DNA of 39,264 nucleotides from a virus: positions 1 through 39,264 of the IMG/VR virus record IMGVR_UViG_3300042691_009360; one strand, given 5' to 3'. The number at the start of each line of letters is the position of its first letter. The stretch's first letter is position 1. A program made the translations under genes and the position numbers. The notes under the pieces were generated by a model. That model had not been told where the DNA came from. It did not search any database and was given only the letters and a program-made list of their open reading frames with translations. Positions 5,114 to 36,761 of the stretch are shown piece by piece.

Positions 5114-8100
5114 ATGGCGGGAGCAAATGATTTTACAGGTAAATTCATTAGCAGTACCTACCAACGAGTATTACAATTATCTGGTAGCGGTGAACTAACA
5201 GATGGTACTGGCTCGTTAGTAAGTTTTCTGCCTATAACCGTATCTAATGCTTTAACAGCATCTTACGTACCAGGAGTTACAGTCACTACTCCAGGTGGAG
5301 ACTTATGGTCTATACAATTTAACTCGGCTAGTACTTTTCAAGGTTCCAACAAATTACTATTCAACAGTGCATCCTCAGTACTAACATTAACCGGTTCATT
5401 AAGTATAACTGGTTCAACTCTACAAGTAGGAAGCAATACATTATACGGTGATACTCTGTTATCGGGTAGTATAACCATATCCGGATCACATTTAGCAAAT
5501 ACACCAACAATTAGGGTGTATGGTGATATGGAAACTGATGGTGTAATTAAATTCCTACCGGTATCCTATGACATAGATCCAACAATATCCGGTTCCTACA
5601 TTTTTGTATCAGGTTCAACTGATGACTTGTATTTTTCTCAAAATGGTGCAGGATATAGTAACGTCACTCGTCTACGTTGGATAGAAGGTAATTTATATAC
5701 TGGGTTATTAAACGGTGGTATAGTAACACAAGTAAATACCAACACATACAGGATTAGCAGTGGTAGTGGTATTATTGTTAATTTAAACGGATCGTATAAT
5801 AATAATCCATACCCAATAATAGAATATCTTAATTGGGGAAATATAACTAATACAATTGATGCTTTAAGTGGATCATTCGATCAACAATTTATAGCTATAT
5901 CCTCCTCAGCAGGCACGCCAGTTATTAAAGCACAAGGTACGCCGTACATTGATGGTGATTATAATACTTTTATACCAATTGGTATTGTACTCCATCAAAA
6001 TAGAAGCTCAATAAATGGTGTTCAAACTTTCCCAGGAGTAGCTTATGGTTGGAAACAAAGATCTTTTGATTTTATTAAAGCATTTGGAGCATTAAAAATC
6101 GCAGGATATAATTTAACACAAAGTGGTTCCTCAACAAGAGGGTTATTATTGAGTGGAGGTACTTCTTGGGTTGATGGTAGAAATTATGCAGTTGATCCTA
6201 ATAATCCAAGTTACATTACGGAAGCAGTAGGTACGACTACTTCTAAAATATTTAGATACTATCAGTCGGGATCTAATTGGCAATCCAATTGGGGCTACAA
6301 TACAAATGGAGGAGCGGGATTTACAGATATTGATCCAACTCAGTATTCAAATGCCGGTACACTAACTCCTGTACCTGTAAACAACTGGAGTATACAGAGA
6401 GTATTTTACTTTCCTAATAGTGCGACAAAAGCATTATTTGTTTATTATGGTAACGCTGTATACGCCAATGAGGCAGCTGCATTAGCAGCAGTAACCACTG
6501 AACCATTTACCGAAGCTCCTAATACAGCAGCCAGCTCTATCTATGTTGGTTATATGTTGTTGAGACATAATGCTGATTTTACAGTACCAGCATCATATGA
6601 ATTTTACTCTGCTGGTTTATTTAGAGGATCTGGTGCAGGCGGTGGCGGAGGTGGAGGTGGAGCATCTACATTATCTGGATTAACAGATGTGTCACTATCA
6701 TCATTAGCTAATGGTGATTTATTAAAGTATAATTCAAGTACAGGATTATGGAACAATACAAAAACGCTATCAGGTAGTTACACTTTATCAGGATCTCTAG
6801 TTACTAATGATGGTGTATGGGTTCAGAGTTTAACAGCTTCTTTTATCAGTGCATCATCTATTACCGGGTCCTTATTTGGTACTGCAAGCTGGGCAGTGTC
6901 AGCTTCTATATCAACAAGTAGTAGTTATGCTTTAAATTCCTCATTTGCTCTTACAGCTAACACGGCTAACACGGCTAACAGTGCTACATCAGCAACTGAA
7001 GCTAATACGGTAAGAATTAATCCTCAAGATATAACAACGAATGCATTTAAACCGTTTTTACTGCCTAAAGAGTTAAGCACATCCCCTGTACCATATTATT
7101 CTAGATTAGATGAGACTGCACTTACTCTTAATCCAGCAAAAAATATTATACGGTTTATTCCTAATGACACTAACGCTAAGCCTCAATTAGAAATAGGTGA
7201 TTCATTAACTAATAACAGTGGTCAATTAGTTGTATATGGTAAGGTATGGGCAGAAGAATTAAACATACTGCCTACTACTATTAAATTTATAGACACGGTA
7301 AATACTAGTAGTTTTAATAAGCTCACGGATTTATCATTTATTGATTCTAAATTAGTATTGTCTACCGGATCATTTTCTGGATCATTTTCCGGTTCTTTTT
7401 TCGGTACTGCAAGTTGGGCTACCAATGCTGTAACAGCATCTTTCTTACCAATTGGCAGTTATAGTATAACGTCTTCTTGGGCTCAATCTTCATCCCAAGC
7501 ATTAACGGCATCTTATACCCCTAATGCACTCATTACAGCGTCTGTTTCCTCTAATGTAATAACATTTACTAAAGGAAACAATACTACGTTTAATTTAACA
7601 GTAAACACGGGGTCTGTAGTAACCCCGGGTGGTTCAGATACTCAAATTCAATATAACTCAGGAAGTACATTTGCAGGTTCTTCAGCTTTTGTATTTTCAT
7701 ATGCTTCTCAAAGTGTTAAAATTGGATCTACAAATACTTTAATAGGACAACGCACTTTAGCTGTCGGTTTAAATAATATAGCTTCCGGATCAAACTCAGT
7801 AGCATTTGGTACTGCTAACCAATCTAGAGGTATAGGATCATTAGCATCTGGTGATACAACTATTACTATAGGACAATTTTCTCATGCTGAGGGATTCCAA
7901 ACTACAGCTACTGGTCAATGGTCACACGTAGAAGGATATTTAGCTGAATCTAAAGGAGATTATTCTCATGCTGAAGGTTCACAAACTATAAGTTCAGGAT
8001 CATACTCTCATGCCGAAGGATCTAATACAACAGCATATGGTAATGCATCTCATGTTGAGGGCATAGGATCAATAACCAAAACTGATTATTCACACGCTGA

Positions 8101-9427
8101 AGGATACTATACTATAACATCTGGAAGCTCATATACTGTATCCGGATCAAATGTAGTATTATATGCGTATAATCAGACTGCTACCGGTGTTGGATATATA
8201 GTACCATCTCCAGGATCTCTTCCTTTTACAACTACTCAAACAAATTATTTATTATGGGGAGATTTGGATTCTGACCAGATCTGGGTTTCACAAATAGATG
8301 ATATACAACAAGTTGATTTAGAAGGAGGAGGAGCAAGGTCAGTCATTTATATTTCAAAATATGATAATCAAGGTCCTACCAATACTGTAACAACAGGTAG
8401 TTTTATTTATAATTTAGACTCTAACACTGCTTTTATTGAGCCAATTGGATTCTTTGATTATGATAATAGTTTAGTTGAAGTATATGATGTTGATTTAACA
8501 GGAATTAGTTGGTCAGGAGGAGTATTATTAACATTACCTAATTATGGATCTTATGTTTTTGATATTAGTGGAGTGACTTACTCCTCTAATACCTCTTCTA
8601 TTACTATAACTACTCCTCAAACCATAATTAATAACTCTGGAGCTCCATCTTTAACTGGTACTACATTTAATACAGGCCATGTATTTGGAACAAATATATC
8701 TAGTGATTGGTCAGGAAATGAAGAAGTCACTTTACCGGATGAAAATGGAGTTAGTGTTGTTAGATATTATAATTCTATATCTAAAACATTAACTATTTCT
8801 GGAAGTGGTAATTACACCTCATCATTTCAAAATAATACTTTATTCTATTTAAACGGTACATTATCAAGAGTATCAGCTTCTTCTTATAGTAATAGTGCTA
8901 CACACGTTACTATGTCTGTTGGTCCTACCTATGATTTATATTATAGTCAACCGACTATAACTTTAGGTAACACGGCTCACGCTGGAGGAGCTTATACTAT
9001 AACAAATGGTAATTTCCAAACAGCTGTTGGTACATATAATAAAAACAATAATACAAGCGATTTATTTGTTGTTGGTGGCGGGTTAAGCGAAACTACGAGA
9101 AAAGATGTATTGGCAGTATCTACTACGACTATCACTATGTCTGGTAGTGTTAGTATATCAGGATCATTGCTAGTAAATGGAACAACGCCAGGTGGCTCAA
9201 CAGTAAAAGCAGGCTCAGCGACTTCATTTGGCGGTTCACCGAGAACCGGATCAATAACATTTGCTACTCCATTTACCGATAACAATTATTCAGTTACAGT
9301 AACAGGAGAAGATGCTCGTAGTTGGACAATACAATCTAAATCATCTACGGGATTCACAATTAATTCAAATTCATCAGTAGCCTTAACCGGTCCGGTTTAT
9401 TGGATTGCGACACCTTTTAATTCATAA
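5114..9427 (+). CDS. Large tail fibre / adhesin with YadA-like head repeats
   Basis: The product is 1437 residues and was probably selected for receptor binding. Visible regions, in order: a Ser/Gly/Thr-rich beta N-terminus; a larger domain to about residue 500 containing Trp-rich segments; a glycine linker (residues 505-517); a shaft with FGTASWA modules near residues 587 and 763; and six 14-residue SHAEG/SHVEG repeats at residues 923-1006, typical of a YadA-type left-handed beta-roll. Then come a beta region and a C-terminal domain of about 80 residues (ITFATPFTDNNYSVTV, DARSWTIQS) that resembles a lectin-like fibre tip. The protein probably forms a trimer. It follows the gene at 4558 by ten bases and precedes the 73-residue mini-fibre. 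Confidence 0.75.
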   Translation: MAGANDFTGKFISSTYQRVLQLSGSGELTDGTGSLVSFLPITVSNALTASYVPGVTVTTPGGDLWSIQFNSASTFQGSNKLLFNSASSVLTLTGSLSITGSTLQVGSNTLYGDTLLSGSITISGSHLANTPTIRVYGDMETDGVIKFLPVSYDIDPTISGSYIFVSGSTDDLYFSQNGAGYSNVTRLRWIEGNLYTGLLNGGIVTQVNTNTYRISSGSGIIVNLNGSYNNNPYPIIEYLNWGNITNTIDALSGSFDQQFIAISSSAGTPVIKAQGTPYIDGDYNTFIPIGIVLHQNRSSINGVQTFPGVAYGWKQRSFDFIKAFGALKIAGYNLTQSGSSTRGLLLSGGTSWVDGRNYAVDPNNPSYITEAVGTTTSKIFRYYQSGSNWQSNWGYNTNGGAGFTDIDPTQYSNAGTLTPVPVNNWSIQRVFYFPNSATKALFVYYGNAVYANEAAALAAVTTEPFTEAPNTAASSIYVGYMLLRHNADFTVPASYEFYSAGLFRGSGAGGGGGGGGASTLSGLTDVSLSSLANGDLLKYNSSTGLWNNTKTLSGSYTLSGSLVTNDGVWVQSLTASFISASSITGSLFGTASWAVSASISTSSSYALNSSFALTANTANTANSATSATEANTVRINPQDITTNAFKPFLLPKELSTSPVPYYSRLDETALTLNPAKNIIRFIPNDTNAKPQLEIGDSLTNNSGQLVVYGKVWAEELNILPTTIKFIDTVNTSSFNKLTDLSFIDSKLVLSTGSFSGSFSGSFFGTASWATNAVTASFLPIGSYSITSSWAQSSSQALTASYTPNALITASVSSNVITFTKGNNTTFNLTVNTGSVVTPGGSDTQIQYNSGSTFAGSSAFVFSYASQSVKIGSTNTLIGQRTLAVGLNNIASGSNSVAFGTANQSRGIGSLASGDTTITIGQFSHAEGFQTTATGQWSHVEGYLAESKGDYSHAEGSQTISSGSYSHAEGSNTTAYGNASHVEGIGSITKTDYSHAEGYYTITSGSSYTVSGSNVVLYAYNQTATGVGYIVPSPGSLPFTTTQTNYLLWGDLDSDQIWVSQIDDIQQVDLEGGGARSVIYISKYDNQGPTNTVTTGSFIYNLDSNTAFIEPIGFFDYDNSLVEVYDVDLTGISWSGGVLLTLPNYGSYVFDISGVTYSSNTSSITITTPQTIINNSGAPSLTGTTFNTGHVFGTNISSDWSGNEEVTLPDENGVSVVRYYNSISKTLTISGSGNYTSSFQNNTLFYLNGTLSRVSASSYSNSATHVTMSVGPTYDLYYSQPTITLGNTAHAGGAYTITNGNFQTAVGTYNKNNNTSDLFVVGGGLSETTRKDVLAVSTTTITMSGSVSISGSLLVNGTTPGGSTVKAGSATSFGGSPRTGSITFATPFTDNNYSVTVTGEDARSWTIQSKSSTGFTINSNSSVALTGPVYWIATPFNS
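7880..8131 (+). repeat. Six 14-residue YadA-like head repeats
   Basis: The period is 42 bases. Each unit begins SH(A/V)EG and ends in a small/aromatic pair. Codons differ between copies, so conservation is at protein level. A preceding stretch (SNSVAFGTANQSRGIGSLASG) looks like diverged units of the same roll. Confidence 0.7.
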
Positions 9428-14490: not shown

Positions 14491-16851
14491 ATGGCAGAAA
14501 AACTAGTATCACCTGGCGTCTTTACCTATGAAAAAGATGCTTCGTTTTTACCGACAGGTGTTGGTCAGATAGGAGGAGCTCTTATTGGCCCTACGAAAAA
14601 AGGACCTGCGTTTCGTCCTACAGTAGTAACATCGTATCAAGAATTTATTGATATTTTTGGAGACTTAGACTCCTCAACTTATTTACCTTATGCAGCTAAA
14701 GCTTATCTAAGAAGTGCTGGATCAGCTACCATTATTAGAATTATGGGTAGTTATCCATGGAATCAAGCTAATGCTCACGTTATTTATAATGATACTGCAT
14801 CACCTAAACATCCGTTAGCAGTTTTAGTTCCTACTAAAGGTACTACGGGTGGGTTACTGACGGTTTCTGCAGGAACTGCTGATAATTTTAATATTACATT
14901 TGCAGGAGTAACATTATCTGGAGTATCATTTAATAGTTCTAGTACTAGCTATATAGGAAATCTATTTAGTACTTCCCCGGACGTAACTGGATCTGGAGTT
15001 ACGGGTGCGTATTATTTATACAGATTTTTTCCGGAAGTCGGGCAAACATCCGCGGCCGCTGGCAATAACGTTGCTAAAGAAGGTGCTACTTCAACCTTTT
15101 TCGTTACCGGCAAATCATTTACTAATGCTAAGACTCCATACGTAACTTCTCAATTATCTAGTGGTCAAGCTATTAATTTATTTAAAATTGGTAGAATATC
15201 CGATGGTACTGAAGGTAATTATGATGTTAAAGTAACCATTGAAGATATTAGGAAATCCGGTACCGTACCTGGAACAGAATATGCACTCTTTAATATATTT
15301 GTAAGACGTGTAGGAGGATTTTTAGGCTCTTCTGATTCCGACACTAGAACTGAAGTATTGGAATCTTATTTAAATTTAACTTTAGATCCCTCTTCTGAAA
15401 ATTATATCTTAAAAAGAATTGGGGATACGTATTCTACCGTAGATTCTGATGGAAGAATCAATCTAATTGGTGATTATCCTAATAGAAGTAAGTACATTTA
15501 TATATTACCCGTTCAAGGATTTGACACATTACCTCCTAGTTTATATCCTTTTGGATTTAAAAAACCCGTAGCCACCGTACCTTTTGGGGGTGCTGCTACT
15601 GGAATGCCTGGAATGGGATATGTTACTAGACAAGGAGATGCTAATACATATGATAATAGATATTTGTTCGGATTTGATTTTTATAGTGCTGACCAATTAC
15701 AATTATTATATTCAATTCCAGATGCAGCTGCTTCAGTAAATGCAAATTTTTCTGCAGACTTCAATTTAGATAATATGTTTGCCCACAATTCATCTTCAGC
15801 AGCTGGTACTAATGGCGCTGCATTTGCTGCTGGTGGGTCTTTGTCATCTAGTTTGGCTCCTGTGGAAATGTTAAAATTTGCTCTACCGCTACAAGGGGGT
15901 CATGATGGAATGCCATACAATAAAGCTAAAAATGTAGGAGTTAATATAACCTCTGCAAATGCTTTTGGATTTGATTTTTCTAGCGGTGCTGCTTCTGGAT
16001 CTTTAGATTATATTAAAGCTTTAAATATATTGAGCAATGCAGATGAGTATGACGTTAACTTAATTGTTACTCCCGGTATTATTAATAGTTTGCATTCCGA
16101 TGTAACTTCTAAAGCTATTGAAGTTTGTCAAAATCGCGGAGATGCTTTCTATATAATGGACGGATTCCCAATTAGTGCTAGCGTTTCTGAAGCAGTAGCT
16201 AGTATATCTACATTAGACACCAATTATGCAGCGACGTATTATCCGTGGGTAAAGGTACAAGATACCGTTTCTAAGAAATTTGTTTGGGTTCCACCCTCAG
16301 TAGCTGCAGCAGGAGTATATGCACAAAACGATACTTTCTCATATGAATGGTTTGCACCAGCTGGTTTAAATAGAGGTATAATTTCAGATGCAACGCAAGT
16401 TTATTTTAGACTTACTAATGCTGAAAGAGATAATCTTTATTTAAATAGAATTAATCCTATTGCACAGTTTCCAAGTTTAGGTATTTGCGTTTGGGGACAA
16501 AAAACTCTTCAAGCTAAAGCATCTGCATTGGATAGGATTAACGTAAGAAGGCTTTTAATTGCAACTAAAAAATATATTGCTTCTGCAACTAAGTATTTAG
16601 TATTCGAGCAAAACACCACGCAGACTAGAAACAGATTCTTGAACATTGTTAATCCTTATTTAGAATCAGTAAAATCTAGACAAGGATTATATGCATTCAA
16701 AGCTGTGATGGATGAGAGTATCAATACACCGGATTTAATCGATCGTAATATTCTTTATGGTCAGATTTATTTACAGCCTACTAAGACCGCTGAATTCATT
16801 GTTATTGATTTCAATATCCAGGCAACTGGTGCTTCATTTACTAACGCATAA
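14491..16851 (+). CDS. gp18: Tail sheath protein, copy 1 (T4 gp18-like)
   Basis: The product is 786 residues; T4 gp18 is 659. The N-terminus (MAEKLVSPGVFTYEKDASFL) is the characteristic sheath arm. The last 140 or so residues hold the conserved core that packs on the tube (RLLIATKKYIASATKYLVFE, NPYLESVKSRQGLYAF, ending TAEFIVIDFNIQATG). The middle holds the variable protruding domains. It polymerises around the tube and contracts at infection. The second sheath gene starts 35 bases after its stop and is nearly identical at both ends. No Shine-Dalgarno is visible; the leader is taacaaattaatctaaaaaat. Arginine codons in the conserved end are mostly AGA/AGG. Confidence 0.92.
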   Translation: MAEKLVSPGVFTYEKDASFLPTGVGQIGGALIGPTKKGPAFRPTVVTSYQEFIDIFGDLDSSTYLPYAAKAYLRSAGSATIIRIMGSYPWNQANAHVIYNDTASPKHPLAVLVPTKGTTGGLLTVSAGTADNFNITFAGVTLSGVSFNSSSTSYIGNLFSTSPDVTGSGVTGAYYLYRFFPEVGQTSAAAGNNVAKEGATSTFFVTGKSFTNAKTPYVTSQLSSGQAINLFKIGRISDGTEGNYDVKVTIEDIRKSGTVPGTEYALFNIFVRRVGGFLGSSDSDTRTEVLESYLNLTLDPSSENYILKRIGDTYSTVDSDGRINLIGDYPNRSKYIYILPVQGFDTLPPSLYPFGFKKPVATVPFGGAATGMPGMGYVTRQGDANTYDNRYLFGFDFYSADQLQLLYSIPDAAASVNANFSADFNLDNMFAHNSSSAAGTNGAAFAAGGSLSSSLAPVEMLKFALPLQGGHDGMPYNKAKNVGVNITSANAFGFDFSSGAASGSLDYIKALNILSNADEYDVNLIVTPGIINSLHSDVTSKAIEVCQNRGDAFYIMDGFPISASVSEAVASISTLDTNYAATYYPWVKVQDTVSKKFVWVPPSVAAAGVYAQNDTFSYEWFAPAGLNRGIISDATQVYFRLTNAERDNLYLNRINPIAQFPSLGICVWGQKTLQAKASALDRINVRRLLIATKKYIASATKYLVFEQNTTQTRNRFLNIVNPYLESVKSRQGLYAFKAVMDESINTPDLIDRNILYGQIYLQPTKTAEFIVIDFNIQATGASFTNA

Positions 16852-24600: not shown

Positions 24601-26854
24601 TAATTCTAAGGTGGGACAAATTATAGGCGGTATAGCCAAATTTTTCGGATTATCTAGATTATTTAAATTACAAGATGCTACTGCTACCACTATAAATACG
24701 GGAGCACAAGTTGCTAGTATAGCACCTACTACGGCAGCTGGCACTGCAGCTGGGTCTGCAGCATTTGGTTGGGCAGCATTAGGATTTTCATTAGCCGCAG
24801 TAGGTTTAAGTATAGCAGCTGTCATATATAGTATTTCTAGTTTAGCTAGCGCATTTGCTCAATTAAAACCAGAGCAGCTTTCAGCATTACAAGATGTTTT
24901 ATTAGGCCTTGGAATTGGAATATTGGCGTTTACGGGAATAATAGCTGGATTAGTATATTCCGGAGTATTACCTGCAGCAGCTGGAGGATTGATTGCTTTG
25001 GGCGCAGCCGCTTTAATGATTGGAGCTGGAGTACTCTTAGCAGCTACTGGTATGACGCTATTAGCATCTGCATTTAAGCAGTTACCTGCTGAAGATGTAT
25101 CTAATTTGGGAATCGCATTATTCTCATTAGCAGGAGGTTTAGGCGCTATTGCTTTAGCTTCTATAGGATTTGTAATAGCATTACCTGCAATTTTGGCTAT
25201 GACCGGAGCATTAATGTTATTAGCACCTGTATTTGACCAATTAGGAGGTGCTGTTGCTGGGTTGAGTACCGGATTTACCTCGTTAATGGAAAGCATTAAG
25301 AGTATGCCTGCATCTGAATTGTTTGCTTCAGCAGCTGGGTTTATATCATTAGCTGGCGCATTAGGCGTATTTACTCTAGCTTCAATCGGATTGTTAGCTT
25401 CTGTACCAGCCGTATCTATTTTAACTGGTGCATTATTATTATTGGGCCCGGCGATTTCAGCTATAGGCGCCGGAATCAATTCAGTAGCTACTGGATTTCA
25501 AATTTTAGTAGCTTCTATAAACCAATTAAATCCTGAATTATTAACGGCTATGTCAGGAGCATTTTTAAATATGGCATTAGCTTTAGGGGCTGTAACCGTA
25601 GCAATAGTAGCAACGGCAGCCCTAGCACCGGCAGCTACTTTGTTAGCCACTGTTCTAGGGACTTTAGGTGTGAGTGCTTTATTGGTAGGAGTTGGATTAA
25701 AATTAGCAGAAGGCGCTATTGCATCTATTACTTCTTCATTAACAAATTTAGTAACCAATGTTTCCGGAAATGCATTAAACTCTATGAGTGATGGGTTAAT
25801 TTCGTTAGCAGGAGGTATAGGTATTTTAGCAATTGCCTCAGTAGCACTTTATCCAGCAATACCTGCCTTAGCTATTTTAACTGGTGCTATGGCTTTATTA
25901 GGCCCCGTATTAAAGGTAGTAGGCGAGGGAGTGAATTATATATCCATTGGATTCCAGAACCTTGCTAATGCAGTAAAACAAATAAATCCGGAAACTATGT
26001 TTTCAATAGCAGCTGCCTTTGGGTCAGTTGCTTTGGCGTTAGGCGCTTTATCAGTTGCGATAGTAACCACAGCTGCATTTGCTCCCGCAGCTATTTTATT
26101 AGCAGGAGTTATGACGACTTTAGGTATTAGTGCAATAATGGTTGGTATTGGATTGAAATTAGCATCGTCTGCTATTGAATCAATAACTAATTCACTATTA
26201 ACTTTAACATCTAATATCAGTCCTTCTATTTTAGATGCTATGAAATCCGGGTTATTCTCATTAGCAGAAGGAATAGGTGCTGTTGGATTGGCAGCTATCG
26301 GATTTACATTAGCAATACCTAGTGTTACGTTATTCAGTTTATTGATGGGGTCATTAGGATCTAATTTAATTTCGGTGGGTACTGGAATGACAACTATAAT
26401 TTCTAATTTAAATGCATTTGTAACTTCGGTTAATACAGTTTTACCGATGATAGATCAAATTAATTTATTGACTGATGCATTTTCAAATTTAGCTGAATCT
26501 ATAGGAGAAGTTGGAATAGCTTCAATATTAGCAGGTCCTGCTATGATGGCGTTGGGAGGCATTACCTCTTTAGTTAGTGGATTATTCAGTGGTGGTGAAG
26601 CTAGCGTTGCTCCGGTAGCAGCCACTCCGGGTCCTGTAGGTGCTGGTACTATACCTACTACGACTGCTGCAACAGCCCCGGGCCCGGCAGCTGCAGCTGC
26701 TCCTGCCATTGATATAGAAGGATTAATGGTTAAATTGGATTCATTAATTTCAGCTGTTAATAATCAACCTATACAATTAGTAGTTAACGGTAAAGTGTTA
26801 GCAGAAGTGGTAGGAAGAAATACTTCTAGAACAGGCGCTGCTTTTTCTAAATAA
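21641..26854 (+). CDS. Tail tape measure protein
   Basis: The product is 1737 residues and is the longest in the window. Residues 1-430 are coiled-coil rich (many Lys/Glu/Gln heptads). Residues 430-800 are Ala-rich helical with a hydrophobic stretch near 450. Residues 885-985 contain three DT(G/A)IT-x-SNT units. Residues about 1075-1600 are a strongly hydrophobic tandem array of about 73-79-residue units. A Pro/Ala-rich linker then leads to a short C-terminus (IQLVVNGKVLAEVVGR), a typical tape measure tail. It sets tail length and probably enters the cell envelope at infection. T4 gp29 is 590 residues, so a much longer tail is implied. It follows the chaperone-like pair, as expected. Confidence 0.85.
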   Translation: MDKNLKDQLDAANKLNATLKETQKSTTQLTKNFGSVSDAINNLRAESITSFREFNSGISQTINLFSKLSDLAKTRFTEIGNQINITTGVTQDLVGIIGEAVSKASENFELNSDIEESTRAVKRNLLENESIRSRITDAARLEYENQEKYLTGLDIAYNKKVKELRLKEDEVTNQQNLIDSIQNNIQLTTELLNLSTSQADKTYYSNILAKQSIDLEEAKIDSKEKQLNLDMAAEAAATVLSQKQNTLKNGYKSIEDAQKRITDAIDQATDSTVKLSIDYKRYGNAVNAVADAQVSSGEVLQKFNQMVADQSRKDFEESYAAKLKGSKDISKISKEEYDLQFRRNSLEKSLIDASKLRSDILSRIAQQGGVKTKLDEEELRVAEDIITQGKVQLVNLDESIEKLAVVEKYQKHVHHELEKQNIAKHAANEITAGLTNLLGDAGGELLNIGKAIQESMVSPLALVGALIGTALEEFMKIGEANKSFMETSKLNASQIEHLSHVAHDLSLEYRAQGLEYNDVLNTAGALVNQFGTLNQVSDVAVEKASLLGKAFGVSADSAAGVIAQLQRSTGASAETAGNIAALGANFAKAAGVAPDAVMADIAGSSEEIATYFKGTEKDLFKTAVEARRLGLDLKKVANISQSLLNFESSIEDQMTASVLLGREINLDKARQLAMEGKIQEAAEETLKQVGSLSEFNKMNAVQKEAIAKAAGMSVGDLQKSLQAQEALSKMTAEQRLEYEKGLQALNAGNEVTAEKLLQDQRNQVTQQKIADAVAKISEIFANVILPVLEPIFNGLLGIFNIVEPLLPILKGIVQLLLIAKVATLAWQGVLRLISFMGAKKELLSIGGLLKGIKAGSLGLWAGFKNITGITSAVQATKAFSAAKAMDTGITATNTSANTLNSAQMAVYRAQRLAGVSATKALAAARGIDTGITNSNTGSQIKNTLANSKLGKAMQSLGTMIKGTSIFKAADTAITNSNTLAQTRNALANSKVGQIIGGIAKFFGLSRLFKLQDATATTINTGAQVASIAPTTAAGTAAGSAAFGWAALGFSLAAVGLSIAAVIYSISSLASAFAQLKPEQLSALQDVLLGLGIGILAFTGIIAGLVYSGVLPAAAGGLIALGAAALMIGAGVLLAATGMTLLASAFKQLPAEDVSNLGIALFSLAGGLGAIALASIGFVIALPAILAMTGALMLLAPVFDQLGGAVAGLSTGFTSLMESIKSMPASELFASAAGFISLAGALGVFTLASIGLLASVPAVSILTGALLLLGPAISAIGAGINSVATGFQILVASINQLNPELLTAMSGAFLNMALALGAVTVAIVATAALAPAATLLATVLGTLGVSALLVGVGLKLAEGAIASITSSLTNLVTNVSGNALNSMSDGLISLAGGIGILAIASVALYPAIPALAILTGAMALLGPVLKVVGEGVNYISIGFQNLANAVKQINPETMFSIAAAFGSVALALGALSVAIVTTAAFAPAAILLAGVMTTLGISAIMVGIGLKLASSAIESITNSLLTLTSNISPSILDAMKSGLFSLAEGIGAVGLAAIGFTLAIPSVTLFSLLMGSLGSNLISVGTGMTTIISNLNAFVTSVNTVLPMIDQINLLTDAFSNLAESIGEVGIASILAGPAMMALGGITSLVSGLFSGGEASVAPVAATPGPVGAGTIPTTTAATAPGPAAAAAPAIDIEGLMVKLDSLISAVNNQPIQLVVNGKVLAEVVGRNTSRTGAAFSK
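24866..26500 (+). repeat. Seven to eight hydrophobic 73-79-residue repeats in the tape measure
   Basis: Units begin with a (N/S/K)-P-(E/A/S)-x-(L/M/V) pattern near 24866, 25082, 25303, 25523, 25762, 25981, 26218 and (partial) 26440. Each continues with SLA-x-G-(L/I)-GA-x-x-(L/V)-AS-(I/V)-(G/A) and LTGA-x-x-LLGP, then GF-x-x-L. Two unit types alternate. Repeats are diverged at DNA level. Confidence 0.65.
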
Positions 26855-26898: not shown

Positions 26899-29800
26899 AT
26901 GGGAGTAACTACCACCGCCGACTTAACGAGACAACAAATATCGTATTCTCCAACAAATTTAACTACGCCCGGGCCGGTTAATCAGGGGTCTTCTAATTCT
27001 TCTCCATTTAATCCGGAAATAAATCAAGGGAGTACTACTCCGACTATATCCAATCCTGAAATAAATCAAGGCAGTGCTACTCCATTTCCATTTGAAGCTG
27101 ATATAGTACAGGGTAGTACGGAACCATTAAAAAATTTAAATCCTATAAATCAGGGTAGTACAGAACCGGTAGTCACTAATTATGAACTTAATCAAGGAAG
27201 TACTACTCCTAGAATTGTTGAACCTACAATTAATCAAGGAAGTACAGATCCTCAAATACCTTCATATAATATACAACAAGGAGAGACTACTCCGGTATTA
27301 ACAAATTATAATATTCAGCAGGGTGAGACTACTCCTACATTAACTAATTATAACATAGAACAAGGTGAAACGACTCCATCTTTAACTAATTACAATATCC
27401 AACAAGGAAGTACGACTCCAACTCTTACAAATTATAACATAGAGCAGGGTAGCACTACTCCTTCATTAACTAATTACAATATTGAACAAGGTAGTACTAC
27501 TCCAACATTACCGTCTTATACCATTGAACAAGGTAGCACCACTCCCTTAATTCAAGATAGACCTATAACGCAAGGAAGTACAGATCCTACTTTAACTAAT
27601 TATAATATAGAGCAGGGATCTACAGATCCGGTATTAACTAATTACAATATAGAGCAGGGAGAAACCACGCCAGCTTTAACTAATTACAATATCCAACAAG
27701 GGTCTACAGACCCCGTATTAACCAATTATAATATTCAACAAGGATCTACAGATCCGGTATTAACTGATTATAATATAGTACAGGGTGAGACTACTCCTTC
27801 TTTAACTGACTATAACATAGAGCAGGGATCTACAGATCCGGTTCTCACAAATTACAATATCCAACAAGGAGAAACTACACCTGTTCTTACAAATTACAAT
27901 ATTGAACAAGGTAGTACATCGGCTACTCCGTTTAATGCGGATATTCAGCAAGGTAGTACGGATCCCGTTCTTACTAATTACAATATTCAACAAGGTAGCA
28001 CAGATCCGGTACTGACTAATTACAATATTCAACAAGGAGAAACTACACCTACTTTAACCAATTATAATATAGAACAGGGTGAATCTTCTCCTACTCCATT
28101 TAATGCTAATATACAGCAGGGAAGTACGGACCCAGTTCTCACAAATTATAATATTGAACAAGGAGAGACAACCCCTACACTTACTAATTATAATATTCAG
28201 CAGGGAGAAACTACTCCAGTATTAACTGACTATAATATACAGCAAGGCTCTACAGATCCGGTACTGACTAATTATAATATTGTACAGGGCAGTACGGATC
28301 CGGTATTAACAAATTATAATATAGAACAAGGAGAAACGACGCCTACTTTAACTAACTATGAAATTGAACAAGGCAGTACAACTCCGGTACTGACTAATTA
28401 TAATATTGAGCAGGGATCGACAACTCCCACCCTTACAAATTATAACATAGAGCAGGGGTCTACAACTCCAACTCTTACCGATTATAATATAGAACAAGGA
28501 AGCACTGATCCGGTTCTTACCAATTATAACATAGAGCAGGGACAGACTACCCCAGTACTGACTAATTATAATATTGAACAAGGTGAAACAACACCTACGT
28601 TAACAAATTATAATATTCAGCAGGGCGAAACGACACCTGTGCTGACTAACTATAACATAGAACAGGGAGAAACAACTCCTACTCTTACAAATTATAATAT
28701 CCAGCAAGGAGAAACGACTCCCACGTTAACTAATTATAATATTGAACAAGGAGAGACCACCCCTACACTTACTAATTATAATATAGAGCAAGGTTCCACG
28801 ACTCCTACTTTAACGAATTATAATATAGAGCAAGGATCTACCACCCCTACTTTAACTAATTATAATATTGAACAGGGGTCTACAACTCCTACCCTTACCA
28901 ATTATAACATAGAACAAGGAGAAACCACTCCGACTTTAACTAACTATGATATAGAACAAGGGGAAACCACTCCGACGTTAACTAATTATAACATAGAGCA
29001 AGGAGAAACGACTCCCGTTCTCACTAATTACAATATTCAGCAAGGGGAAACAACCCCCTTTTATCCTGATACTGTTATTAATCAAGGAGAAACGACTCCC
29101 GTTCTTACTAATTACAATATTCAACAAGGGTCTACGACGGTAAAGCCTAGAGTTACTAGAATCAATCAAGGAGAAACTACTCCTTTTTATCCTGATACTG
29201 TTATTAATCAAGGAGAAACTACTCCGGTATTAACTGACTATAATATTAATCAAGGAGCTGGATCTGTAGTAATTTTTAATCGCGGTATCGGATTACAAAA
29301 TAGTATTGAATTTGGTGAAAATCAAGAAATATTATTAGCAACATCTCCATTATTTTCAACCACAGTACCTTCTAATGCTCCCATTGTAGGTGGTGCTACG
29401 TTAGCTTCGTTGGTAACCGGAGGGTTGTCAGCTTTAACTGGTAATTCTTCGTTAGTACAGACGGTAAGTATAGCATCATATTTAGGAGCATTGCCTTTAT
29501 CATTATATCGTAGACCTGATGGTCTTTTGTTAATAGGAACACAAGTTGCAGAAGCCGCTTTCAGTAATATCATGACTAGAAAAAGTAAAATTTTCGACGG
29601 TGATATCGGTTCTCCTTCTACGTTGAACGTAGATAGATTTAATAATGTAGGGGTAACACAAGTTATTAAAGATGCTGGGTATCCGCAATTTGGAGGAGGA
29701 AATTTGGATCCTACTAGTAATGATAGGAACGATATATTCTCTAGACCAGAAAATTGGCGATATCCTAGAAAATCTTATATTGGCAGAATTCCTATATCAA

Positions 29801-31029
29801 ACGGATTTACGGAAGTAACCAATATCAATTCAGCTTTAATAAAAGATCCTATTATATATCATCCGTATACATCGGGTGATCCGGATACTATGAATGTAGG
29901 AATATCAATAGGTGCAGAGAGATTGCGTTCCTTGAATTCAATAGATGTCGAACAAACTAATATACATTTGTTTAGACCTTCGAATAAGTTTTTATCCGAT
30001 AATAATATTTTTTCCTTAGAAAATACTTCATTAGAATATAAAAATTCTTCATTCACCGGAACTCCCGGGTATGGAGAACAAAGAATCATGCCCGTTACGT
30101 ATGAATCTAATTTTACTACTGTTTCTAATCCTATAAGTCCACAAAAAGGAATTTTACCTACACATAGGATTAGCGATCAAACTTCTAATGTTTGGGCAGC
30201 ATTTTCTAATATACCATTGGTGGATGCTAATTCTAGATATGCGGGTGCCACTTTAAGCTATACTGATATTGCTATTAGAGCAGCTGAGTCGATAGCGGGC
30301 AAAACGAGCGACGTTCCATATTATAATGAAATACCCGGAGCTATCCTTCCTTCTCTTGATCAGAAAGCAGTACTCTATGCTTATACTCCGTATAGTGAAA
30401 TTAATTTAAGAGGGGCAAATCCCAGTGATAGTGCGGATGATGCTAATTTTCCTATTGATCCTATATATGAATCGACTGGCGATACTGATATTGCAGATTT
30501 TATTAAGTTGCGATTTACGGATAAACGCACGGGAGGATTAGGATCTGTACAATTTAGAGCGTATATTGAAGATTTTTCAGATAAATTATCGCAAAATTGG
30601 ACTGATATTAATTATGTTGGTAGGCCCAACTCTTTAAAATTATTTAATAATGTTTCTAGGGATATAAATATTTCTTTTATGGTTCCTGCACTTAGTAGAG
30701 GTGAATTAAAATTCATATACGCTAAAATAGAAAAACTTACTAAAATGTCATTACCTACCGGTGTAGGTATCATGAAAGGACCTGTATTAGGAGTGACCGT
30801 AGGAGATTGGTTTTCAGATGAACTTTGCGTTATTAACAGTTTAGATTTTACTATAGATACTGAATATCCATGGGAAATTAATGTAGAGGAGGAAACAGGA
30901 GAAGGAGCTGAAGTTGCTGAATTACCTCAAATAGTTAAAGTTTCTATGGGATTGCACGTAATAGGAAATAATGTTATGAATCAAGAATATACTGTATTTG
31001 GTACTACTATATCAAAAAATTTAGCATAA
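26899..31029 (+). CDS. Tail-tube/baseplate-cap protein with a 55-copy 14-residue repeat
   Basis: The product is 1376 residues. After 26 N-terminal residues, about 55 copies of a 14-residue unit (consensus NIEQGSTTPTLTNY) run to about residue 794. The remaining 580 residues are a normal phage tail protein. Residues about 1180-1340 (FRAYIEDFSDKLSQNW, NYVGRPNSL, RDINISFMVPALSRGELKFI, GVTVGDWFSD, YPWEINVEEE) match a fold common to tube-initiator and baseplate-cap proteins (T4 gp48/gp54 position). It sits between tape measure and gp53-like genes. The repeat part is acidic, Thr/Gln/Asn-rich, and has no cysteine or lysine. I am confident it is a tail protein; the precise equivalent is inference. Confidence 0.7.
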   Translation: MGVTTTADLTRQQISYSPTNLTTPGPVNQGSSNSSPFNPEINQGSTTPTISNPEINQGSATPFPFEADIVQGSTEPLKNLNPINQGSTEPVVTNYELNQGSTTPRIVEPTINQGSTDPQIPSYNIQQGETTPVLTNYNIQQGETTPTLTNYNIEQGETTPSLTNYNIQQGSTTPTLTNYNIEQGSTTPSLTNYNIEQGSTTPTLPSYTIEQGSTTPLIQDRPITQGSTDPTLTNYNIEQGSTDPVLTNYNIEQGETTPALTNYNIQQGSTDPVLTNYNIQQGSTDPVLTDYNIVQGETTPSLTDYNIEQGSTDPVLTNYNIQQGETTPVLTNYNIEQGSTSATPFNADIQQGSTDPVLTNYNIQQGSTDPVLTNYNIQQGETTPTLTNYNIEQGESSPTPFNANIQQGSTDPVLTNYNIEQGETTPTLTNYNIQQGETTPVLTDYNIQQGSTDPVLTNYNIVQGSTDPVLTNYNIEQGETTPTLTNYEIEQGSTTPVLTNYNIEQGSTTPTLTNYNIEQGSTTPTLTDYNIEQGSTDPVLTNYNIEQGQTTPVLTNYNIEQGETTPTLTNYNIQQGETTPVLTNYNIEQGETTPTLTNYNIQQGETTPTLTNYNIEQGETTPTLTNYNIEQGSTTPTLTNYNIEQGSTTPTLTNYNIEQGSTTPTLTNYNIEQGETTPTLTNYDIEQGETTPTLTNYNIEQGETTPVLTNYNIQQGETTPFYPDTVINQGETTPVLTNYNIQQGSTTVKPRVTRINQGETTPFYPDTVINQGETTPVLTDYNINQGAGSVVIFNRGIGLQNSIEFGENQEILLATSPLFSTTVPSNAPIVGGATLASLVTGGLSALTGNSSLVQTVSIASYLGALPLSLYRRPDGLLLIGTQVAEAAFSNIMTRKSKIFDGDIGSPSTLNVDRFNNVGVTQVIKDAGYPQFGGGNLDPTSNDRNDIFSRPENWRYPRKSYIGRIPISNGFTEVTNINSALIKDPIIYHPYTSGDPDTMNVGISIGAERLRSLNSIDVEQTNIHLFRPSNKFLSDNNIFSLENTSLEYKNSSFTGTPGYGEQRIMPVTYESNFTTVSNPISPQKGILPTHRISDQTSNVWAAFSNIPLVDANSRYAGATLSYTDIAIRAAESIAGKTSDVPYYNEIPGAILPSLDQKAVLYAYTPYSEINLRGANPSDSADDANFPIDPIYESTGDTDIADFIKLRFTDKRTGGLGSVQFRAYIEDFSDKLSQNWTDINYVGRPNSLKLFNNVSRDINISFMVPALSRGELKFIYAKIEKLTKMSLPTGVGIMKGPVLGVTVGDWFSDELCVINSLDFTIDTEYPWEINVEEETGEGAEVAELPQIVKVSMGLHVIGNNVMNQEYTVFGTTISKNLA
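26977..29280 (+). repeat. About 55 tandem 42-bp units encoding QGxTTPxLTNYNI
   Basis: The period is 42 bases (14 residues) throughout. Conserved residues are QG and T-P; the position after NI alternates E/Q/V/N and the one after QG alternates S/E. A few units carry alternative tails (TPFNA, FYPDT, KPRVTR). Codons vary between copies, so this is not a recent DNA expansion. Confidence 0.95.
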
Positions 31030-31032
31030 TAT

Positions 31033-31344
31033 ATGAACGCAACTAAAAGATATGACGGAGTTAGAGTTGATAAAACTTCGATTGGAAAACAATTTTATTC
31101 ATCTATTATTTATCCTACCATAGATCCAGATCCTAACGATATATATACTATGGTATATGAGAGTGATAGGTTGGACTTATTAGCATATAAATACTATGGA
31201 GATGTTAGATATTGGTGGATAATAGCACAAGCTAATAGTTTAGGAAAAGGTTCATTATACGTTACTACCGATTCTAGAGTACGCATACCTAAAAATATAG
31301 ATAAAATTATTTCCGATTACGAAACTTTAAACAAAAACCGATAA
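31033..31344 (+). CDS. gp53: Baseplate wedge protein, T4 gp53-like (LysM-like)
   Basis: The product is 103 residues. It contains the LysM-like pattern found in gp53-type baseplate proteins: YTMVYESDRLDLLAYKYYGD, RYWWIIAQANSL, then a strand ending VRIPKNID. T4 gp53 is 196 residues, so this is a reduced version holding mainly the LysM-like core. In T4 it joins adjacent wedges around the hub. It lies three bases after the repeat protein and one base before the hub gene. Confidence 0.75.
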   Translation: MNATKRYDGVRVDKTSIGKQFYSSIIYPTIDPDPNDIYTMVYESDRLDLLAYKYYGDVRYWWIIAQANSLGKGSLYVTTDSRVRIPKNIDKIISDYETLNKNR

Positions 31345-35941: not shown

Positions 35942-35950
35942 ATATTTATT
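35942..35950 (+). promoter_or_regulatory. ATATTTATT motif, putative late promoter element
   Basis: The motif lies four bases after the polymerase stop and only four bases before the dismutase ATG at 35955. As a -10-like element it would give a leaderless message. Confidence 0.5.
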
Positions 35951-35954
35951 GTAT

Positions 35955-36761
35955 ATGAAGTTAAAACAGCTTTTAGTAGAAAATATACTCCCGGATGCCA
36001 TAAAAAGACAGGCAAACCATATGGGTATAAATTGGGAATCAGATCCTGAGTTTATAGTTTTCATAAAAGATTTAACTAATAAAGATTCCGTAGATAAATT
36101 AAATCCAGATGAAACCAAATTGGTTTATATGGAACTTTTAAGTGGTAAGTACGGAAATAAAAAATCTAAAGCATTTTTTGAAGCTGAGCCTTTAAAATAC
36201 GGATATGGATCTGTAGAACATTTTATTAATGGTGAAACCATGCAAGTTCATTATGAAGGACATTACATGGGATACATTAAAAAATTAAATGCTGAGTTAT
36301 TGCTTTTAGATAAAAAACCTGAAAAAAAGATTGAAGATTTAATAAGTAACATTTCTAAATATTCAACTTCAATAAAAAATAATGCTGGGGGCTATTATAA
36401 CCATTCTTTATTTTGGAACTTTTTATCTCCGACTCCGACACCTCCAAATGAAAAGGTAGCTTCTTTAATTGATTCTACATTTAAATCTTATGCTGAATTC
36501 AAATCTAAATTTGAAGAAAAAGCAAATGGATATTTCGGATCCGGCTGGGTGTGGGTAGTTTTAGATAAAAAAGAACTAAAAATAGTAACTACTAGAAATC
36601 AAGACAATCCTTTAATGAATGATAAAAATATTAAAATTTTATTAGGATTAGATTTGTGGGAACATTCATATTATTTAAAATATAAAAATAAAAAAGACGA
36701 ATACGTAAAGAATTTTTGGTCTGCTGCGTGTTGGAGTATAGCTAACAGTATAGTTAAATAA
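35955..36761 (+). CDS. sod: Superoxide dismutase, Mn/Fe family, Mn-type features
   Basis: The product is 268 residues, converting superoxide to hydrogen peroxide and oxygen. All four metal ligands are present: H99 (VHYEGHYMGY), H150 (GYYNHSLFW), D233 and H237 (GLDLWEHSYYLKY). The gateway tyrosine (Y107), FGSGWVWVV and FWSAACW are conserved. The motif NNAGG-Y and the late glutamine in NQDNPL are features of Mn-type enzymes. About 80 extra N-terminal residues (MKLKQLLVE...) precede the usual start; they are not a signal peptide. A TTG at 35949 adds two residues, but ATG 35955 is preferred. The next gene starts one base after the stop. Confidence 0.92.
   Translation: MKLKQLLVENILPDAIKRQANHMGINWESDPEFIVFIKDLTNKDSVDKLNPDETKLVYMELLSGKYGNKKSKAFFEAEPLKYGYGSVEHFINGETMQVHYEGHYMGYIKKLNAELLLLDKKPEKKIEDLISNISKYSTSIKNNAGGYYNHSLFWNFLSPTPTPPNEKVASLIDSTFKSYAEFKSKFEEKANGYFGSGWVWVVLDKKELKIVTTRNQDNPLMNDKNIKILLGLDLWEHSYYLKYKNKKDEYVKNFWSAACWSIANSIVK

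Follow-up and report, generated by a model that had tools for sequence, protein, structure and literature searches.

A tube-initiator-like phage tail protein with an N-terminal array of 55 exact 14-residue units

The window analysed here is a 39,264-base IMG/VR record, read on one strand and probably a fragment. It encodes a tube-initiator-like tail protein of 1376 aa (26899..31029, + strand), in which an array of 55 exact 14-residue units precedes a C-terminal domain of the T4 gp48 type. The fold and the family of this protein are well supported. For the array, the best explanation, with a probability of roughly 0.38, is a multivalent N-terminal arm that docks on a partner; the partner and the function of this arm are what we infer.

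The tube initiator and its gene neighbourhood

The protein starts with a leader of 25 residues (26899..26973, +), where "ADLTR" aligns to the "ANLDR" leader of relatives. The array follows at residues 26-795 (26974..29283, +), with the consensus NI(E/Q)QG(S/E)TTP(T/V)LTNY. Its units are consecutive and every one has 14 residues, with indels in 0 of the 55. All 55 units have Q4 and G5, 53 have I2, and T7 and P9 each occur in 51. Identity at lag 14 is 0.71, whereas 1000 shuffles average 0.10 and reach no more than 0.13. Tandem Repeats Finder recovered the array at 42 nt and multiples. In terms of composition, there are 79 D/E, only 7 K/R, no C and no W, and 64% of the residues are P, G, S, T, N or Q. 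A previous sequence-only reading had placed such a tandem array in a baseplate or tube-cap protein, at 26977-29280. The array and the kind of protein are both borne out, with the true extent 3 nt wider on each side.

After the array comes a middle region (residues 796-1176; 29284..30426, +), for which the structure model gives a likely helix at about 835-898 and low confidence for the remainder. The C-terminal domain occupies residues 1177-1372 (30427..31014, +). AlphaFold2 predicts it with confidence at about residues 1202-1354 (pLDDT about 90 or more), and Foldseek/VIA matched this model best to tube initiators and to baseplate rings of a similar kind, namely A-1(L) 8kea (E 5.6e-7), P1 9ay5_G (Z 12.3) and T4 5iv5_BE (residues 39-358, Z 10.8), with further matches in Afp/PVC. 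Chain BE of 5iv5 would be T4 gp48, going by the masses in PMC3004832 and because its residue numbers reach 358, gp54 being shorter. A C-terminal HMM built without the window scores the window protein at 170 bits (E 2.5e-49). The upstream ORF matches the C-terminal profile of the family in 74/74 gp53-like loci having an upstream gene, and the order tape measure, initiator, gp53/LysM is found in the window and in all 74 of these relatives. The PDB sequence search with profile A1 gave no match, the PHROG search gave none for the initiator ORF, and no family library searched has a name for the domain. Taken together, profile, predicted fold and gene order give good support to a T4 gp48-like tube-initiator domain in the C-terminal ~190 residues, which is what the "ordinary tail domain" of the sequence-only reading turns out to be. 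T4 gp48 sits between hub and tube as a platform for tube growth (PMC3004832), and A-1(L) gp18 initiates the tube as a hexamer and touches a LysM protein (PMC10966104).

The tail cluster runs from two sheath paralogues through the tail tube, a baseplate hub protein, the tape measure, the initiator and the gp53-like LysM gene to a hub-like gene of 875 aa. The sheath paralogues, of 786 and 793 aa, lie in tandem at 14491-16851 and 16887-19268 (+). The tail tube protein (162 aa; 19376..19864, +; phrog_4542, E 2e-30) is 60-68% identical to the tubes of relatives found with it. The baseplate hub-assembly protein (PHROG "baseplate hub"; phrog_150, E 1e-18) is at 20201..21085 (+). Directly upstream of the initiator gene, the 1737-aa tape measure protein (21641..26854, +) has no library profile match and is assigned by position, size and homology to the ORF at the same position of a related locus, L048 (33% identity over 453 aa). 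Directly downstream is the gp53-like (LysM) baseplate wedge protein (103 aa; 31033..31344, +), identified by phrog_7145 (E 7e-10) and the gp53-like alignment. Between the tail and replication genes there is also an Fe/Mn superoxide dismutase gene (35949-36761, +; Pfam Sod_Fe_C, E 4e-33). Its matches in the phage collection reach at most 41% identity over ~70% of the query, and several of them resemble host DNA deposited as phage.

Relatives, origin and age of the array

A tblastn search of 50,697 phage records found relatives of four kinds only: Microcystis phage Mel-JY01, Flavobacterium immuto, Rhodothermus RM378 and the huge phage LR756508. The homologue is called hypothetical in the three annotated records (Mel-JY01, immuto and RM378), LR756508 being without annotation. 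IMG/VR was queried with the Mel-JY01 C-terminus, the gp53-like alignment, the tube protein and others, which brought the total to 205 loci (L numbers). About 130 of these loci have family genes, amounting to 94 distinct sequences. Many members share an N-terminal peptide like M-x-L-x-D-L-x-S-D-L-S ahead of the variable part. An alignment of five C-termini was dropped as a scanning profile, being too diverged. Direct searches gave no close relative of the window's C-terminal part in viral or genome contigs, and none of its 875-aa gene in viral contigs.

As for the array itself, the DNA pattern of the 14-residue unit had no match in viral contigs, and a PDB sequence search with 12 units returned nothing credible. 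Library matches to GT-D, Gp44-like, Med14 and DUF1573 were discarded as summed repeat artefacts, with no single stretch passing. Matches to Aeromonas siphophages are due to an unrelated 14-residue array. In Aeromonas phage BUCT552 (521-4951) a siphophage tail protein ends in ~19 exact 14-residue repeats (LLAPYNLRSTVQAE); this array is convergent, on another tail protein.

An N-terminal tandem array, defined by periodicity above all own shuffles, is present in 26/94 distinct members and absent in 68/94. Varying or absent arrays in relatives were among the outcomes that the sequence-only reading had named as speaking against a ruler or a solenoid. The units have 14 residues in the window, and elsewhere 15, 16-17 (acidic, in LR756508), 39-44 (Mel-JY01 clade), 66 (L054/L084) or a different 14 (L073/L093); one further array, of period 76, is marginal. 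The same protein thus carries at least five array types other than the window's in relatives. No paper on repeat arrays of tube initiators was found among the open-access journal papers searched. Within these papers the novelty claimed for such an array stands, although the window shares the feature with relatives. In a tree built on the C-terminal domain, members with arrays stand in separate places; the arrays elsewhere in the family are independent. Two other long members may be mentioned: a 1545-aa protein (L182, 15207-19844) with no clear short period, and a 2927-aa protein (L014, 1081-9864) with long insertions within its 44-residue units.

The window branches next to the L048/L061/L091 clade, with weak support (92/49) and long branches. 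The nearest members (L048, L061, L064, L040, L091, L146 and L197-L204) have 7-12 Q-G motifs in the N-terminal region, of the form hydrophobic-x-Q-G-(S/T/E)-x-x-P; the strict count is 7-8, against 1-2 expected by shuffling. The first QG is at residue 29 in the window and at 30-31 in the relatives. Several nearest members have Q-G pairs exactly 14 apart, with other copies scattered. One such pair in L091, EQGSTSPIKIKRRITQGSTNPTL, scores 25.2 bits against a two-unit profile of the window, the maximum in 4850 shuffles being 9.3. Since the QG motif is common to this clade and the pair scores in this way, the window array most likely grew from the motif of the clade.

Codons were compared in units 8-49, the most regular part of the array (27268..29031, +). 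Between these units pooled pS is 0.77, which is saturated, and pN is 0.19. The codon variation and the protein-level selection claimed from sequence are both upheld, the former strongly. The rate at which a residue shared by two units is also encoded by the same codon is 0.455, both for neighbours (lag 1) and for distant units, which leaves no sign of recent duplication. For the 15-residue L060 array the rates are 0.84 at lag 1 and 0.65 for distant units; arrays of the L027/L060 type are still undergoing duplication. The saturated pS, the few protein differences and the invariant Q4 and G5 mean that the window array is old and maintained as protein, in exact phase. Its unit number looks old and stable as well. 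A role of the repeat at DNA level was rejected, synonymous sites being random between units. Selection for scrambled codons against recombination is also unsupported, because exact runs of at least 20 bases are slightly commoner, not rarer, than in codon permutations (33 vs 21 +/- 5).

Tail length, fold and the possible role of the array

The sequence-only reading had proposed a second ruler beside the tape measure and a comparison of repeat number with tape-measure length across relatives. Over 80 distinct members, N-terminal and tape-measure length show a weak correlation (Spearman 0.23, p 0.04), which is absent in members without arrays (rho -0.09). The median tape measure has 1214 aa in array carriers and 855 aa in the others (p 0.0016, shared descent ignored). 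Within the Mel-JY01 clade there are 12 units at a tape measure of 1214 aa, 18 at 1250, 22 at 1348 and 21 at 1468 (rho 0.77, n=6, p 0.07). The L059 and L060 types have 900-aa tape measures that are 100% identical and arrays of 14 and 15 units; each of these types (also L107/L108/L111 and L109/L110) occurs in more than one assembly, although repeat assembly can err. These are near-identical marine phages, with initiator arrays one 15-residue unit apart. L091 has a single tandem pair at a tape measure of 1585 aa, L146 has no array at 1496 aa, and L002 has a 17-residue array of ~50 units at 1602 aa. The T4 tape measure, gp29, has about 590 aa. T4 has 138 copies of gp19 (PMC3004832), therefore 23 rings, and A-1(L) has 689 aa of tape measure per 24 rings, with a ring rise of 36.2 A (PMC10966104). 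At the resulting 25.7-28.7 tape-measure residues per ring, the 1737 aa of the window correspond to 60-68 rings, to be compared with 55 units.

A ruler of one unit per tube ring, in which 55 units would set or check a tail of ~55 rings, has several points in its favour: 14 residues can cover one ring of 36-40 A, 60-68 rings are not far from 55, L002 fits about equally, carriers have longer tape measures and the unit number of the window looks settled. The relatives tell against it. Identical tape measures go with 14 or 15 units, the Mel-JY01 correlation rests on six members and includes a step from 12 to 18 units over 36 aa, ring counting would call for roughly twice the units present in the 15-residue clade, and L091 has its one pair. 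Unit number changes without change in the tape measure and keeps no fixed proportion to it, so the strict ruler is already refuted in relatives, and for the window we consider it improbable. What survives of the proposed comparison is a loose link between unit number and tail length, via the longer tape measures of carriers.

The preferred reading is the docked arm on a gp48-like initiator. The ORF encodes the tube initiator of a contractile tail, and its C-terminal domain would form the first tube-like ring on the baseplate; this ring would be a hexamer with six arms. Each 14-residue unit is one copy of the short Q-G motif, and each arm, probably a largely extended chain, would dock unit after unit on a regularly spaced partner. 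The likeliest partners are the tail tube and the tape-measure bundle, either of which would build up from the initiator ring. At 2.6-2.9 A per residue, 14 residues would equal one tube ring of 36-40 A, which would explain the exact period despite freely drifting codons. Such an arm may keep the tape measure or the tube attached to the baseplate while the tail assembles or fires, with a possible role in nucleation, tethering or firing. The loose relation of unit number to tail length suggests an accessory scaffold or tether and not a ruler, and the labile unit numbers of relatives favour an accessory role in the same way. Counting against the docked arm are the 68/94 members without an array, the long-tape-measure L091 and L146 included, and the periods of 15, 17, 44 and 66, not all of which can be matched to one ring just by extending the chain. 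An extended version, with six arms running along the whole tail at one unit per tube ring as a second, length-matched set of strands beside the tape measure, seems improbable. If true, the arms would line the tube or guide its polymerisation in long-tailed phages.

Folding of 12 units with the array's own 37-row alignment gave a mean pLDDT of 38.7 with short, weak strands, and ten units within a longer model gave ~31-41, the units as a whole lying at 31-43. The composition falls on the disordered side of the charge-hydropathy line. Together these values argue that the chain, when monomeric, is extended or disordered; AlphaFold2 was run on the monomer, and any fold that needs the hexamer or a partner would be invisible to it. 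A flexible spacer, an entropic tether or bristle joining an N-terminal anchor peptide to the initiator ring, with only bulk and solubility mattering, agrees with the low pLDDT, the P/G/S/T/N/Q-rich and nearly K/R-free composition, the unrelated array sequences and free unit numbers between clades, and the conserved peptide ahead of the variable part in many members. Yet a pure spacer would not be expected to preserve a 14-residue register exactly across 55 old units in which two residues never vary, and relatives retain the motif at matching positions. Such regularity speaks for docking more than for a spacer alone; the spacer we hold to be possible but rather doubtful.

Stacking of the units as a beta-solenoid or roll, perhaps in a trimer or hexamer that serves the baseplate as fibre, sheath or spring, would account for the exact period, for a length of 14 residues as in YadA rolls and for the short strands at each unit of the weak model. 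The predicted units show no confident solenoid, proline is present in nearly every unit, hydrophobics are few and there is no PDB or Pfam relative, so that we find this arrangement unlikely. The suggested kinship with YadA-type rolls is unsupported as well, the unit being T/N/Q/P-rich with a near-invariant proline, Pfam YadA_head having no match in the array and the model of 12 units being of low confidence. The 14-residue YadA-type roll reported in the fibre gene is indeed there, as SHAEG repeats at residues ~878-1000 of ORF 5114-9427 (+), where YadA_head gives E 0.005, below its cut-off. An exposed low-complexity arm binding the host or another surface, with adhesin-like variation, would suit the lineage-specific units and the T/S/N-rich array. 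The array is, however, carried by the innermost ring of the baseplate and by no fibre, and the window array shows no sign of fast protein change, which makes this hardly probable.

Tube initiators are usually regarded as small fixed rings, and here they range from 414 to 2927 residues, in a large and mostly unannotated branch of contractile-tailed phages where the extra part is, in several lineages, an array of a regular motif. This raises the question of nucleation, tape-measure tethering and register in very long contractile tails. Natural length series exist, including the two near-identical phage types one unit apart. The repeat-armed initiator suggests that the building or tethering of tails has a feature that was overlooked and can be tested.

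Comparison with known systems

The window protein has its tube-like C-terminal fold in common with T4 gp48, A-1(L) gp18, P1 Tub or PmgG and the Afp/PVC initiator, and its gene has the position of tube initiators, between the tape measure and the LysM/gp53-like gene. In the available parts of PMC3004832 and PMC10966104, both initiators are short, T4 gp48 having 39.7 kDa and the A-1(L) protein joining a barrel (residues 2-180) to an alpha/beta domain, and neither is described with a repeat array; the window protein differs in starting with 770 residues of array after its leader.

The YadA head roll (Pfam PF05658) shares the 14-residue period; the array differs in being proline-rich, without sequence match to it or confident fold. 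Tape measure proteins are likewise long, loosely linked to tail length and encoded by the adjacent gene, but the array lacks their helical heptad pattern and its unit number is unlocked from tail length.

Mel-JY01, immuto, RM378 and LR756508 have the same C-terminal domain as the window, and all of them except RM378 are noted for the same gene order. The unit has 44 residues in Mel-JY01 and 16-17 acidic residues in LR756508, compared with 14 in the window, and the RM378 homologue, unlike the window, has no array. Finally, marine phages of the L027/L060 type resemble the window in a GETTP core with a fixed period on the same protein, their arrays having 12-15 copies of a 15-residue K-F-(L/K)-G-E-T-T-P unit where the window has 55 copies of 14 residues.
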